Below are positions 56,610 to 61,988 of a DNA stretch of 64,000 nt, in pieces (the first letter of the stretch is position 1; each line of letters starts with the position of its first letter). Source of the DNA: Verrucomicrobiia bacterium (GTDB taxonomy: Bacteria; Verrucomicrobiota; Verrucomicrobiia; Limisphaerales; Fontisphaeraceae). The stretch spans positions 1-64,000 of the forward strand of contig JAOAIT010000037.1 of assembly GCA_026414565.1 (NCBI GenBank). Reading direction: 5' to 3'. The notes beneath the pieces are model-generated. The model had not been told where the DNA came from, made no database searches, and was given only the letters and a program-made list of their open reading frames with translations. Made by a program: the position numbers and the translations under genes.

Positions 56610-58979
56610 ATGATGACATGGCTCAGGCAACAACCGCGCGGGGGCGCCCTTGGGTGGCTCGTGGCCGTGGTGTGCAGCGGATGGCTCTGGACGGCGCCGC
56701 TGGGCGCGCAAACCGCGCCGGTGGTGCGGAAGGTGACCATTGACTACGTGGGGCCGGCCACGGTGAGCGAGCCGATGATCCGCTCGCACATCCGGGTCAA
56801 ACCGGGGGACAGCTACCTGCAGGCCAACACCAGCGAGGACATCCGCTCCCTGTACGGCACCGGCCAGTTCCGGCAGGTGGTGGTGGAGCCGATCGCCCTG
56901 CCCGACGGCATTGAGCTGGTGTATCACATCATCGGCAAACCGCGGCTGACCTCCATCAAGTTTGAGGGCAACAAGAAATACTCGGAGAGCAAGCTCAGCA
57001 AGAAGGTCAGCTCCAAGGTGGGGGAGCCGTTGGACGAAGCCAAGATCTTCAATGACACGCTGGAGCTGCAGAAGTTTTATCAAAAGAGCGGGTACCATCA
57101 GACGACGGTCACCAACCTGGTGTCCATTGACGAGCGCGCCGGGCGGGGGACGGTGACGTTCCAGATTAACGAAAGCCCGAAGATCAAAATCGAGCGGGTG
57201 GAGTTTGTGGGGGCACAGCAACTCAAGGAATCCAAGCTGCGGAGGGTGGTGAAGACGCGCAAGCGGTGGTTTTTCTCGTGGCTGACCGGCTCGGGGCGGT
57301 TGAAGGATGACGTGCTGGAGGATGACCGGGAGCGGCTGGCGGATCATTACCGCAACGAGGGGTACATTGATTTTGATTTGCAGGATGTGAAAGTGGATTC
57401 CACCGGTCCCAAGAGCGTGGTGGTGCGGTTTGTGCTGACCGAGGGGCGGCAATACAAGGTGGGCGACGTCGCGTTCAAGGGCAATACGCTGTTTTCCAAT
57501 GAAGAGCTGGCGCGCACCCTCAAGATGGGCGCCGGGGAAATCTTCAAGCCCAAGGGACTGGAGCGGGATTTGGAGGCGCTGCGGGATCGTTACGGCGCCC
57601 GGGGGTATATTGATGCCACGGTGGTGCCGCTCAAAAATCCCAACGTCGAGCGGGGGACGATGGATTTGACCTACCAGATTGAGGAAGGCCAGCAGGTGTT
57701 CATTGAGAAGATTGAGATCAAGGGCAATACCAAGACCAAGGACAAGGTGATCCGCCGGGAGCTGGCGGTGGCGCCGGGCGAGGTGTTTGACATGACCCGG
57801 GTGAAGCTCAGCCAGCGGCGGCTGGAGGGGTTGCAATATTTTGAGAAGGTGGACGCCCGCGCCGAGCAGCCCGGCCCCACGGATCCGCCCAACCGGCGCA
57901 ACCTGGTGGTGTCGGTGGACGAGAAGAACACCGGCCATTTCACCCTGGGCGCCGGCTTCAGCTCGATTGACAGCCTCATTGGTTATGTGGAGGTGCGGCA
58001 GAGCAATTTTGATTTGTTCAAACCGCCCCGGTTTGAAGGTGGCGGGCAGAAGATGCGCCTGCGGGCCACGCTGGGGACGGTGCGGCAGGACTACCTGATC
58101 TCGTTCATTGAGCCGTGGTTTTTGGAGCGCAAACTGACGTTGGGGGTGGACTTGTATCACCGCGTGCTGAACTACGTCAGCCTCAATGATCTGTATGACG
58201 AGCGGCGCACGGGGGCGCGGCTGAGCCTGAGCCGGGCGCTGGGGACCGATTTGTTGATTGGTTCGGTGGCCTACACCATCGAGCGGGTGGGGGTGGTGAA
58301 TGTGAATCCCAACGCCTCGCAGGTGATTCAGGACGAGGCGGGTTACCGGCTGGTTTCCAAGGTGGGCGCGAGCCTGACGTACGACACGCGGGATCACGCG
58401 TTGATGCCCACCCGCGGCCATCGCGTGGAGCTGTTCTCCGAGGTGGCCGGCGGGCCCTTCATGGGGGACACCGATTATTACAAGGTGGAGCTGCGCGGCG
58501 TGCAGTATTTCCGGGGCTTCCACCCCAGCCACATCGTGGAGGTGGCGGCGCGGGCGGGGTCCATGGCGCCATTTGGGGACTCGAAGCGCGTGCCGTTGTT
58601 TGACCGGTTTTTCCTGGGCGGCCTGTACTCGTTGCGGGGTTTTGACTACCGCGAGGTGGGGCCCAAGGATGTGAATGGCGAGCCGATTGGGGGCAACACC
58701 TACTGGTTTGGCTCGGTGGAATATTCCATTCCCATTATTCAGCAGGTGCGCTTTGCGGTGTTTTATGACATCGGCAATGTGTATGCCCAGTCCTGGAGTT
58801 TCAACCACAACAGCCTGCTGGGGGAGAAATTTTACAATGACAACTGGGGCGTGGGCATCCGGCTGAATCTGCCCATTGGGCCGATGCGGTTTGACTTTGG
58901 CGTGCCGATCACCACCGACAGCCGCAATGACAGCAGCGGCAAATTCCAGTTTGGGGTGGGGTACACCCGTGAATTTTGA
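56610..58979 (+). CDS. bamA: Outer-membrane protein assembly factor BamA
   Basis: BamA is the core of the machine that inserts beta-barrel proteins into the outer membrane. The 789-residue product has a signal peptide (LGWLVAVVCSGWLWTAPLGA) and five POTRA domains (about residues 38-420), including LTSIKFEGNKKYSESKL, IERVEFVGAQQLKES and FIEKIEIKGNTKTKDKVI. The C-terminal barrel has the conserved LRGFDYREVGP motif in the loop that reaches into the barrel, and it ends in phenylalanine (FQFGVGYTREF). The start has two adjacent ATG codons. A Skp-like chaperone follows 31 bases downstream. This establishes a Gram-negative envelope. Confidence 0.94.
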   Translation: MMTWLRQQPRGGALGWLVAVVCSGWLWTAPLGAQTAPVVRKVTIDYVGPATVSEPMIRSHIRVKPGDSYLQANTSEDIRSLYGTGQFRQVVVEPIALPDGIELVYHIIGKPRLTSIKFEGNKKYSESKLSKKVSSKVGEPLDEAKIFNDTLELQKFYQKSGYHQTTVTNLVSIDERAGRGTVTFQINESPKIKIERVEFVGAQQLKESKLRRVVKTRKRWFFSWLTGSGRLKDDVLEDDRERLADHYRNEGYIDFDLQDVKVDSTGPKSVVVRFVLTEGRQYKVGDVAFKGNTLFSNEELARTLKMGAGEIFKPKGLERDLEALRDRYGARGYIDATVVPLKNPNVERGTMDLTYQIEEGQQVFIEKIEIKGNTKTKDKVIRRELAVAPGEVFDMTRVKLSQRRLEGLQYFEKVDARAEQPGPTDPPNRRNLVVSVDEKNTGHFTLGAGFSSIDSLIGYVEVRQSNFDLFKPPRFEGGGQKMRLRATLGTVRQDYLISFIEPWFLERKLTLGVDLYHRVLNYVSLNDLYDERRTGARLSLSRALGTDLLIGSVAYTIERVGVVNVNPNASQVIQDEAGYRLVSKVGASLTYDTRDHALMPTRGHRVELFSEVAGGPFMGDTDYYKVELRGVQYFRGFHPSHIVEVAARAGSMAPFGDSKRVPLFDRFFLGGLYSLRGFDYREVGPKDVNGEPIGGNTYWFGSVEYSIPIIQQVRFAVFYDIGNVYAQSWSFNHNSLLGEKFYNDNWGVGIRLNLPIGPMRFDFGVPITTDSRNDSSGKFQFGVGYTREF

Positions 58980-59772: not shown

Positions 59773-61095
59773 ATGAAGCCATTCTGGAAGTGCATTCCTG
59801 GTTCGGTCACGGCCCCGCAAGGATTTCTGGCGGCGGGGGGGTTTTGCGACATCAAGCGTCTGGGCACCGGCAAAGGATCGGACAAGGGCCGGAAACGGGA
59901 TTTGGCGCTCATTGTTTCCACCGAGCCGGCGCGGGCGGCGGGCATGTTCACCACCAACCAGGTCTGCGCGGCGCCGGTGAAAGTGTGCCGTGAGCATTTG
60001 CGGGGCGGGACGGTGCAGGCCATCGTGGCCAACAGCGGCAATGCCAACGCCTGCACCGGCGCACAGGGCCTGCGGGATGCGCGGCAGATGGCGGCCCTTG
60101 CGGCGCGCTCGCTGCAGGTGGAGCCGCGCCAGGTGCTGGTGGCGTCCACGGGCCGGATTGGGGTGCTCATGCCGATGGATCGCGTGCAGGCGGGCATTGA
60201 GGCCGCCGCCCAGCTTTTGGGCGATGCCCCGGAGCACGCGGCCGAGGCCGCCGAGGCCATCATGACCAGCGATACGCGCCCCAAGCAGATGGCCGTCGAG
60301 TTCAAGGTGGGCGGCGCCACGGTGCGATTGGGGGGGATTTGCAAGGGTGCGGGCATGATCCAGCCGGGCATGAGCCCGACCGGCGCACGCCCGGCTTCGC
60401 GGCCGTTGCATGCCACCATGTTGTGCTTCATCACCACGGACGCCGCCATTGCGCGGCCGGCGTTGCAGACCGCCCTGCGCGAGGCCGTGGCGGCCAGTTT
60501 CAATCGCATCACGGTGGACGGCGACATGAGCACCAATGACACCGTCTTGATTCTGGCCAACGGCCGGGCGGGCAATCGCGAAATTCGGGGTGGCCGGGAA
60601 TTGGCGACGTTTCAGGCGGCGTTGAATCATGTGTGTCTGGAGCTGGCCAAGATGATTGTGCGCGACGGTGAAGGGGTGACACGCTTTGTCACCGTGCATG
60701 TGCACGGGGCGCGCCATGCCGCCGATGCCGACGCCGCGGCCCGGGCGGTGGCCAACAGCGCCCTGGTGAAGACCAGTTGGTGCGGGGGGGATCCCAACTG
60801 GGGCCGGATCATGGACGCCCTGGGTTATTCGCCGGCGCGGGTGGCGGAGGAGAAGGTGGACATTGCCTACCGCCGTCCCGGCAGCCGCAAGCTGTGGTAT
60901 AGCGTGAAAAAAGGGCAGCCGACCAAGGTCAGTTTTGCCACGCTCTGCCAGGTGGTGGCGGAGAAGGAGTTTGAACTGCACATCTTCCTGAACCTGGGCC
61001 GCGGGGAGGCGATGATGTACACCTGCGATTTGACGGAGGCCTACGTGGATTTCAACAAGGGCGATGTGTCCAACCCAGCCGCGCTGGGCGGCTGA
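59773..61095 (+). CDS. argJ: Bifunctional glutamate N-acetyltransferase / ornithine acetyltransferase with an insertion at the cleavage site
   Basis: ArgJ transfers acetyl groups from N-acetylornithine to glutamate in arginine synthesis and splits itself into alpha and beta chains before a threonine. The 440-residue product has AIVANSGNANACTGAQG, VASTGRIGVLMPMD, IMTSDTRPKQ, GGICKGAGMIQPGM, the self-cleavage motif HATMLCFITTDAA (Thr215) and SFNRITVDGDMSTNDTVL. Most ArgJ proteins read GMIxPNMATML without a gap; here 13 extra residues (201-213, SPTGARPASRPLH) stand between GMIQPGM and ATML. They are in frame and no stop or frameshift is involved. The gene is followed 17 bases later by argB. Confidence 0.92.
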   Translation: MKPFWKCIPGSVTAPQGFLAAGGFCDIKRLGTGKGSDKGRKRDLALIVSTEPARAAGMFTTNQVCAAPVKVCREHLRGGTVQAIVANSGNANACTGAQGLRDARQMAALAARSLQVEPRQVLVASTGRIGVLMPMDRVQAGIEAAAQLLGDAPEHAAEAAEAIMTSDTRPKQMAVEFKVGGATVRLGGICKGAGMIQPGMSPTGARPASRPLHATMLCFITTDAAIARPALQTALREAVAASFNRITVDGDMSTNDTVLILANGRAGNREIRGGRELATFQAALNHVCLELAKMIVRDGEGVTRFVTVHVHGARHAADADAAARAVANSALVKTSWCGGDPNWGRIMDALGYSPARVAEEKVDIAYRRPGSRKLWYSVKKGQPTKVSFATLCQVVAEKEFELHIFLNLGRGEAMMYTCDLTEAYVDFNKGDVSNPAALGG

Positions 61096-61112
61096 GATTG
61101 CGGGAGGTGATT

Positions 61113-61988
61113 ATGGAAACACTGATTGCCAAAGCGCACACCCTGCTGGAGGCCCTGCCGTACATCCAGCGGTACAGCGGCGCCACCTTTGTGGTGAAAT
61201 ATGGCGGCAGCTTCATGGACTCCCCCGATCCGGAGGTGCGGCAGAGTGTGGCGCGGGACATTGTGTTTCTGGAGGCGGTGGAGATCAATCCGGTGGTGGT
61301 GCATGGCGGGGGCAAGGCCATCACCCGCGCCATGGATGCCGCCGGGTTGAAGGCGCACTTTGTGCAGGGCATGCGGGTGACCGATGCCGCCACGGTGGAG
61401 GTGGTGGATCGCGTGCTGTCGCGCGAGATCAATCCGGAGATAGTGCGCACCATTCAGACCTTGGGCGGGCTGGCGCGGGGCTTTGCGGGCACGGACATTT
61501 TCACCTGCCGCAAGCTGGAGATGGAAGGGCCGGACGGGCGGCCGGTGGATTTGGGCTATGTGGGGGAGGTGGTGGCGGTCAACACCGAGCCGTTGCTGGA
61601 GTGCATTGCCAGGGGCATCACGCCGGTGATCAGCCCCACGGCGCGGGGCGAGGACGGCCACGTGTACAACTGCAATGCCGACGTGGCGGCGGCGATGACG
61701 GCCATTGCGCTGAAGGCCCGGCGGCTGGTGTTCATGAGCGATGTGCCGGGGTTGTTGCGCGATCCGAAAGACCCCGCCACGGTCATTCCGCATCTGCGCA
61801 TCAGCGAGGTGCCGGCCCTCAAGCAGGCCGGCATTATTGACAAGGGCATGATTCCCAAGGTGGACAGCGCCGTGGCGGCCATCAAGGCTGGCGTGGAAAA
61901 GGTCTCCTTTGTGGACGGCCGCGTGCCGCATGCCGTTTTGTTGGAAATTTTTACTGACGAGGGTGTGGGCACCGAGGTGGTGCGGTAG
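61113..61988 (+). CDS. argB: Acetylglutamate kinase
   Basis: ArgB phosphorylates N-acetylglutamate, the second step of arginine synthesis. The 291-residue product has FVVKYGGSFMD (phosphate-binding lysine and glycines), PVVVHGGGKAITRAMD, FVQGMRVTDAATV, DLGYVGEVVAVN, PVISPTARGEDGHVYNCNAD and KGMIPKVDSAVAA. These include the arginine-pathway kinase signatures, and the GMRVTD segment is typical. A strong GGGAGGTG ribosome binding site five bases before the ATG at 61113 decides the start over an in-frame TTG at 61098. It is probably cotranscribed with argJ. Confidence 0.95.
   Translation: METLIAKAHTLLEALPYIQRYSGATFVVKYGGSFMDSPDPEVRQSVARDIVFLEAVEINPVVVHGGGKAITRAMDAAGLKAHFVQGMRVTDAATVEVVDRVLSREINPEIVRTIQTLGGLARGFAGTDIFTCRKLEMEGPDGRPVDLGYVGEVVAVNTEPLLECIARGITPVISPTARGEDGHVYNCNADVAAAMTAIALKARRLVFMSDVPGLLRDPKDPATVIPHLRISEVPALKQAGIIDKGMIPKVDSAVAAIKAGVEKVSFVDGRVPHAVLLEIFTDEGVGTEVVR

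Follow-up and report, generated by a model that had tools for sequence, protein, structure and literature searches.

Gene organization of the argJ locus

The window, i.e. the whole 64,000-nucleotide stretch of a Verrucomicrobiia (Limisphaerales) contig that was analysed, contains a gene for ArgJ (glutamate N-acetyltransferase/ornithine acetyltransferase). It lies in a series of genes encoded on one strand between positions 56610 and 63633 in the order bamA, a 214-aa ORF, argJ, argB, and purH. No match to an NCBIfam model was found for the 214-aa ORF between bamA and argJ. The gene was assigned to argJ by its family scores, all of which exceed the cut-offs (456.3 bits with NCBIfam NF003802, cut-off 351; 428.1 bits with TIGR00120, cut-off 298; and 462.9 bits with PF01960, cut-off 32), as well as by the processing motif and the fold. 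In a profile search of the whole genome to which the window belongs, it was the one match to PF01960. A role of this ArgJ in the arginine pathway is consistent with the presence of argB as the next gene. The features of the locus are as follows.

59773 to 61095, + strand: argJ, an intact single ORF encoding 440 aa
60355 to 60372, + strand: MIQPGM (residues 195-200), containing the conserved M-I-x-P and the hydrophobic anchor Met200, after which the loop starts
60373 to 60411, + strand: the loop SPTGARPASRPLH, 13 residues (ArgJ residues 201-213, from the ORF translation)
60409 to 60411, + strand: His213, at P2 of the predicted self-cleavage site (His in 45 of the 46 ArgJ proteins of the order)
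60412 to 60417, + strand: Ala214-Thr215, the predicted scissile pair, matching the N-terminus of solved beta chains
60415 to 61092, + strand: the predicted ArgJ beta chain, residues 215-440 (alignments with 1vra_B, 3it4_B, and 2vzk_B)
61098 to 61988, + strand: argB (acetylglutamate kinase), directly downstream of argJ (TIGR00761, 221.8 bits, cut-off 151.3)

A loop at the predicted self-cleavage site

ArgJ of M. tuberculosis cleaves itself between Ala199 and Thr200, as given in an excerpt of PMC5887547. The ATML processing motif with its Thr occupies residues 214-217 of the window ArgJ, and Thr215 is predicted to be the nucleophile and the first residue of the beta chain. When solved ArgJ chains were compared with this protein, the match of the alpha chains ended at residue 200 and that of the beta chains began at residue 215, which leaves 13 residues without a counterpart in any of the solved ArgJ structures matched. 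These residues are inserted between GMIQPGM and ATML, with codon 201 starting at position 60373 and codon 213 ending at position 60411. The original prediction, 13 in-frame residues (201-213, 60373-60411) immediately before the self-cleavage motif, was therefore exact in coordinates and numbering. It had also stated that the C-terminus of the alpha chain would be altered at the processing site, and this holds in that the insertion would lengthen that terminus if cleavage occurs where predicted.

Conservation of the loop within the order

ArgJ genes were sampled from the 39 nearest genomes, of which 35 have ArgJ, and from a class sample of 113 genomes, of which 109 have ArgJ. Within the window's order, 47 genomes gave an ArgJ match; in G015 the gene is split between contigs at this position, which leaves 46 readable proteins. 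All 46 carry a loop of 12-23 residues, the motif of which is MSxTGxRPA...LH directly followed by ATML, with a variable middle. Ser201, Gly204, Arg206, Pro207, and His213 each reach 96-98% conservation over the 46 sequences, whereas the median column of the protein is at 87%.

A genome of the same genus encodes an identical loop peptide with different codons at 7 of its 13 positions (7 synonymous and 0 nonsynonymous differences). The other 427 ArgJ codons show 122 synonymous and 38 nonsynonymous differences between the same two genomes. This codon comparison indicates that the loop codons are under purifying selection, and the synonymous-only changes, together with the order-wide conservation, mark the loop as a conserved part of the protein and not an artefact.

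A second extra stretch, LGTGKGSDKGRKR, is located at window positions 59860-59898 (ArgJ residues about 30-42), where the protein is ~10 residues longer than 1vra. This N-terminal stretch is common to the relatives in the same order and to the ArgJ of locus L043.

Distribution of looped ArgJ and the residue preceding the scissile pair

Elsewhere in the class and phylum, ArgJ is mostly unlooped, with loops present in families f45, f53, and f52. When one genome per species was scanned with a sequence pattern, at least 118 loci with a loop and a His before ATML were identified, and the matches listed span Lentisphaerota, Acidobacteriota, Omnitrophota, Elusimicrobiota, Spirochaetota, Myxococcota, Planctomycetota, Verrucomicrobiota, and methanogenic archaea. 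Across bacteria and archaea, the loop at this site is 2-23 residues long. In the class sample around the Methanothermococcus locus L137, 23 of the 28 ArgJ proteins are looped, mostly with NMLH directly before ATML. A loop specific to this genome or to Verrucomicrobiota is ruled out by the looped ArgJ found in other genomes, other phyla, and archaea. The insertion, initially regarded as an oddity of one ArgJ, is the usual state within the order and is found again in many phyla as well as in archaea.

The pattern scan required His, and its at least 118 loci, together with 10 re-found loci, were excluded from every count of P2, i.e. the residue directly before the Ala-Thr pair. These counts were made on 276 unselected parsed ArgJ proteins, comprising those of the window's order, those of the class and phylum samples, and those obtained from seven of the pattern-scan groups by a PF01960 search of evenly drawn genomes, with at most the 30 best-scoring genes taken per search. 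From the other matches of the class sample, 40 stretches were hand-picked together with the nearest-genome matches. The sequence GMIxPNMATML, described in the original prediction as usually uninterrupted, is unlooped in 176 of the 276 proteins and interrupted in 100, a looped share that is not a population estimate because the phyla had been picked for loops already seen. Given these 100 interrupted proteins, an uninterrupted GMIxPNM cannot decide ArgJ membership. The consensus is not universal, and any annotation or model built on it will misplace the site in many phyla.

Among the 100 looped proteins, 95 have His at P2, two have Gln (L029 and L341), two have Ser (L361 and L393), and one has Gly (L399), whereas the 176 unlooped proteins have Met (155), Leu (20), or Thr (1) at P2 and no His. 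Since five of the 100 looped proteins lack it, His is not absolutely needed. When the His-selected loci are included, a hydrophobic anchor precedes the loop in all 203 looped proteins (119 Met, 78 Leu, 4 Val, and 2 Ile). This anchor occupies the position that is P2 in unlooped ArgJ, and the loop is thus best seen as a segment added after the anchor and terminated by His. The distribution of residues at P2 hints that the terminal His of the loops may help the self-cut.

The 22-residue loop of L100 (G048, family f53), NPRGLPLPARPRPSAGGRRGGH, is rich in Arg, Pro, and Gly, ends in His before ATML, and bears scant likeness to the motif of the order. Two Spirochaetota loci, L303 (G346) and L305 (G358), encode divergent ArgJ-like proteins (31-32% identity) in which the KGAGM and DPNWGR regions are changed; they are outside the 276 proteins because the automatic parse failed, and BLAST shows that neither has a loop and that each has Met at P2. 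G358 also has a normal ArgJ (L290), and L303 and L305 may be paralogues of ArgJ that serve another function. L217 is recorded as Pseudomonadota but is placed by the ArgJ tree inside Acidobacteriota, beside L179, which points to either a mislabelled record or gene transfer.

Repeated gain and loss of the loop

FastTree trees were built without the loop and motif columns. The tree of 231 genes requires 16 changes of loop state, as compared with 60-74 when the labels were shuffled, and the tree of 313 genes requires 21. Among 13 phylogenetically independent pairs (starred branches) whose members differ in the loop, the looped member was the one with His in 10.4 pairs on average and the unlooped one in 0.0, and the two members were equal in 2.6; the sign test of loop versus His gave a median p of 0.002 on this FastTree tree, which has many open forks. 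No other column was found to track the loop as well as His at P2 when 1924 combinations of column and residue class were tested on the tree of 313 genes. The best other column, residue 58, reached 6.1 versus 0.7 pairs, which is weak after 1924 tests. On these trees, bacteria and archaea have acquired and lost the loop many times, and the association of His with it does not stem from one inherited event. What is noteworthy is the loop-plus-His rule across phyla and not an oddity of a single gene.

Because FastTree support is weaker than that of a careful search, IQ-TREE was run on 57 rows, nearly all from Verrucomicrobiota and with a few Lentisphaerota as the outgroup. This tree requires four changes of loop state. 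Family f52 falls within the looped clade of the window's order (100/100), and the looped f45 and f53 are placed separately (97/94). One common looped clade within the window's class was not rejected by the AU test (p = 0.161), and the near-identical motifs GMSQTGARPALH (L218, in the order's clade) and AMSQTGARPALH (L049, in f45) favour shared descent or transfer.

In f52 and its relatives, the loop is 12 residues long in L083, 6 in L054, 4 in L121 and L211, and 0 in L043. The L211 genome is labelled Candidatus Udaeobacter. His persists in this series until the loop is gone, at which point the anchor Met becomes P2 (L043). L043 keeps the N-terminal extra stretch of the order (LGTGKGSDKG), which fits a secondary loss of the loop.

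Structure model and putative mechanism

An AlphaFold2 model of the ArgJ precursor, built from 60 aligned sequences, is confident overall (pLDDT 92.5, pTM 0.92). The best fold match was 1vz6, S. clavuligerus OAT2 (Z 49.6, rmsd 1.9, 374 residues aligned), and the modelled fold is that of an ornithine acetyltransferase. The blocks of low confidence are residues 31-40 in the N-terminal extra stretch (mean 56), residues 431-440 at the C-terminal tail (mean 52), and two blocks of residues 201-220 at the loop (means 69 and 71). Residues 211-214 have pLDDT values below 50, as would be expected if a flexible loop surrounds a strained bond.

The explanation that we favour, at about even odds, is that a tolerated loop of variable length follows the Met/Leu anchor and that the chain re-enters the site through His-Ala-Thr, with the P2 His replacing the anchor. 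The chain would leave the core after the hydrophobic anchor, bulge out flexibly, and return to the active site via (Leu/Pro)-His-Ala-Thr, to be cleaved before the Thr. Because the loop would detach the scissile bond from the Met anchor, the P2 His would take over, and this His may hold the Ala carbonyl for attack by the Thr Ogamma or may pass a proton. The alpha chain left by cleavage would end in Leu-His-Ala and the enzyme would be an ordinary ornithine/glutamate acetyltransferase. The S-x-T-G-x-R-P-A motif of the order counts against this explanation, which leaves it unexplained, because its conservation exceeds what a spacer would require. A broader reading, which we put forward tentatively and at less than even odds, is that ArgJ has two interchangeable set-ups for self-cleavage, a Met/Leu anchor at P2 or a loop that must end in a His with an active part in cleavage (positioning or proton transfer), between which it has switched many times.

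Alternative explanations

It had been anticipated that a broad alignment might show the insertion to be common and structurally neutral. Common it is; neutrality is at odds with the conservation of the loop and with a terminal residue that is nearly always His. A structurally neutral surface bulge, the sequence of which is kept by descent and the P2 His of which is a historical accident, is the likeliest of the alternatives, although we consider it rather unlikely. It would account for the free length of 2-23 residues, for the flexibility of the model at this position, and for the occurrence of both looped and unlooped ArgJ in related lineages. It would not lead one to expect that the codons of the loop are under purifying selection, that five of its residues are found in 96-98% of the order's sequences, or the association with His in about 10 independent pairs from separate phyla. 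If the His rule were only historical, the loop would be a lineage marker of ordinary interest. An artefact of sequencing or assembly, foreseen by the original prediction as a refuting case, is ruled out by independent genomes: the peptide recurs unchanged in the genome of the same genus, and the loop is present in 46 of the 46 readable ArgJ of the order. Including a frameshifted or decayed gene, against which the intact single ORF of argJ argues, explanations of this kind have practically no probability.

Other functional roles were also considered. The original prediction suggested a regulated element; the extended tail of the alpha chain might bind a ligand or partner and in this way govern self-cleavage or activity. 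The S-x-T-G-x-R-P-A motif, conserved beyond the level of a spacer, would suit such an element, but the motif is not retained in the looped ArgJ of other phyla and no partner or regulatory domain was found, and we regard this role as very improbable. The loop could instead, by its position beside the active site, narrow ArgJ to ornithine acetyltransferase activity only, with no acetyl-CoA-dependent acetylation of glutamate. Monofunctional ArgJ enzymes without a loop exist, which speaks against this proposal, and we consider it improbable. In its favour are the 23 looped proteins among the 28 ArgJ from the methanogen class of L137 and the OAT of M. jannaschii, described as monofunctional (PMC1382215).

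Comparison with known self-cleaving enzymes

The solved ArgJ structures (1vz6 from S. clavuligerus OAT2, 3it4 from M. tuberculosis, and 1vra from B. halodurans) share the fold and the ATML/ATLL motif with the window ArgJ. The PDB ArgJ entries found by sequence (nine distinct chains) have no loop before the cleavage site and have Met at P2, whereas the window protein has His. No description of a loop or of His at the ArgJ cleavage site was found in a literature search that ran without most subscription journals. ThnT, DmpA, BapA, and NylC self-cleave into two chains and share the fold class of the window ArgJ (Z 16-19), but they are not ArgJ, act on other substrates, and show 11-17% identity over the aligned part.

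A closer parallel to the His rule is provided by the yeast proteasome beta5 subunit, the propeptide of which has His(-2) before Gly(-1)-Thr1 (excerpt of PMC4792962). According to the same excerpt, mutants of His(-2) have growth and activity defects, which are worst for Asn and Phe, and its authors suggest that the native His suits position -2 best, conclude that what matters is the correct placement of residue -1 and Thr1, and state that the general base of proteasome autolysis is unknown (PMC4792962). The viability of the His(-2) mutants argues against His as an obligatory general base (PMC4792962, excerpt). By analogy, His213 of the window ArgJ probably serves to position the scissile bond, proton transfer being a possible but less likely role.

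The beta5 subunit resembles looped ArgJ in having a Thr nucleophile that is freed by self-cleavage (predicted for the ArgJ studied here) and a His at -2; it differs in belonging to another family, in that its propeptide is removed and not kept as a chain, and in having Gly instead of Ala at residue -1. The parallel is a functional analogy and not homology. If the reading of two interchangeable set-ups is true, looped ArgJ would be a convergent counterpart of His(-2) of beta5. If the His rule is mechanistic, natural pairs of looped and unlooped ArgJ, among them the f52 series with loops of 12, 6, 4, and 0 residues, would probe the role of residue -2 in Thr-type self-cleavage, the question raised for the proteasome.
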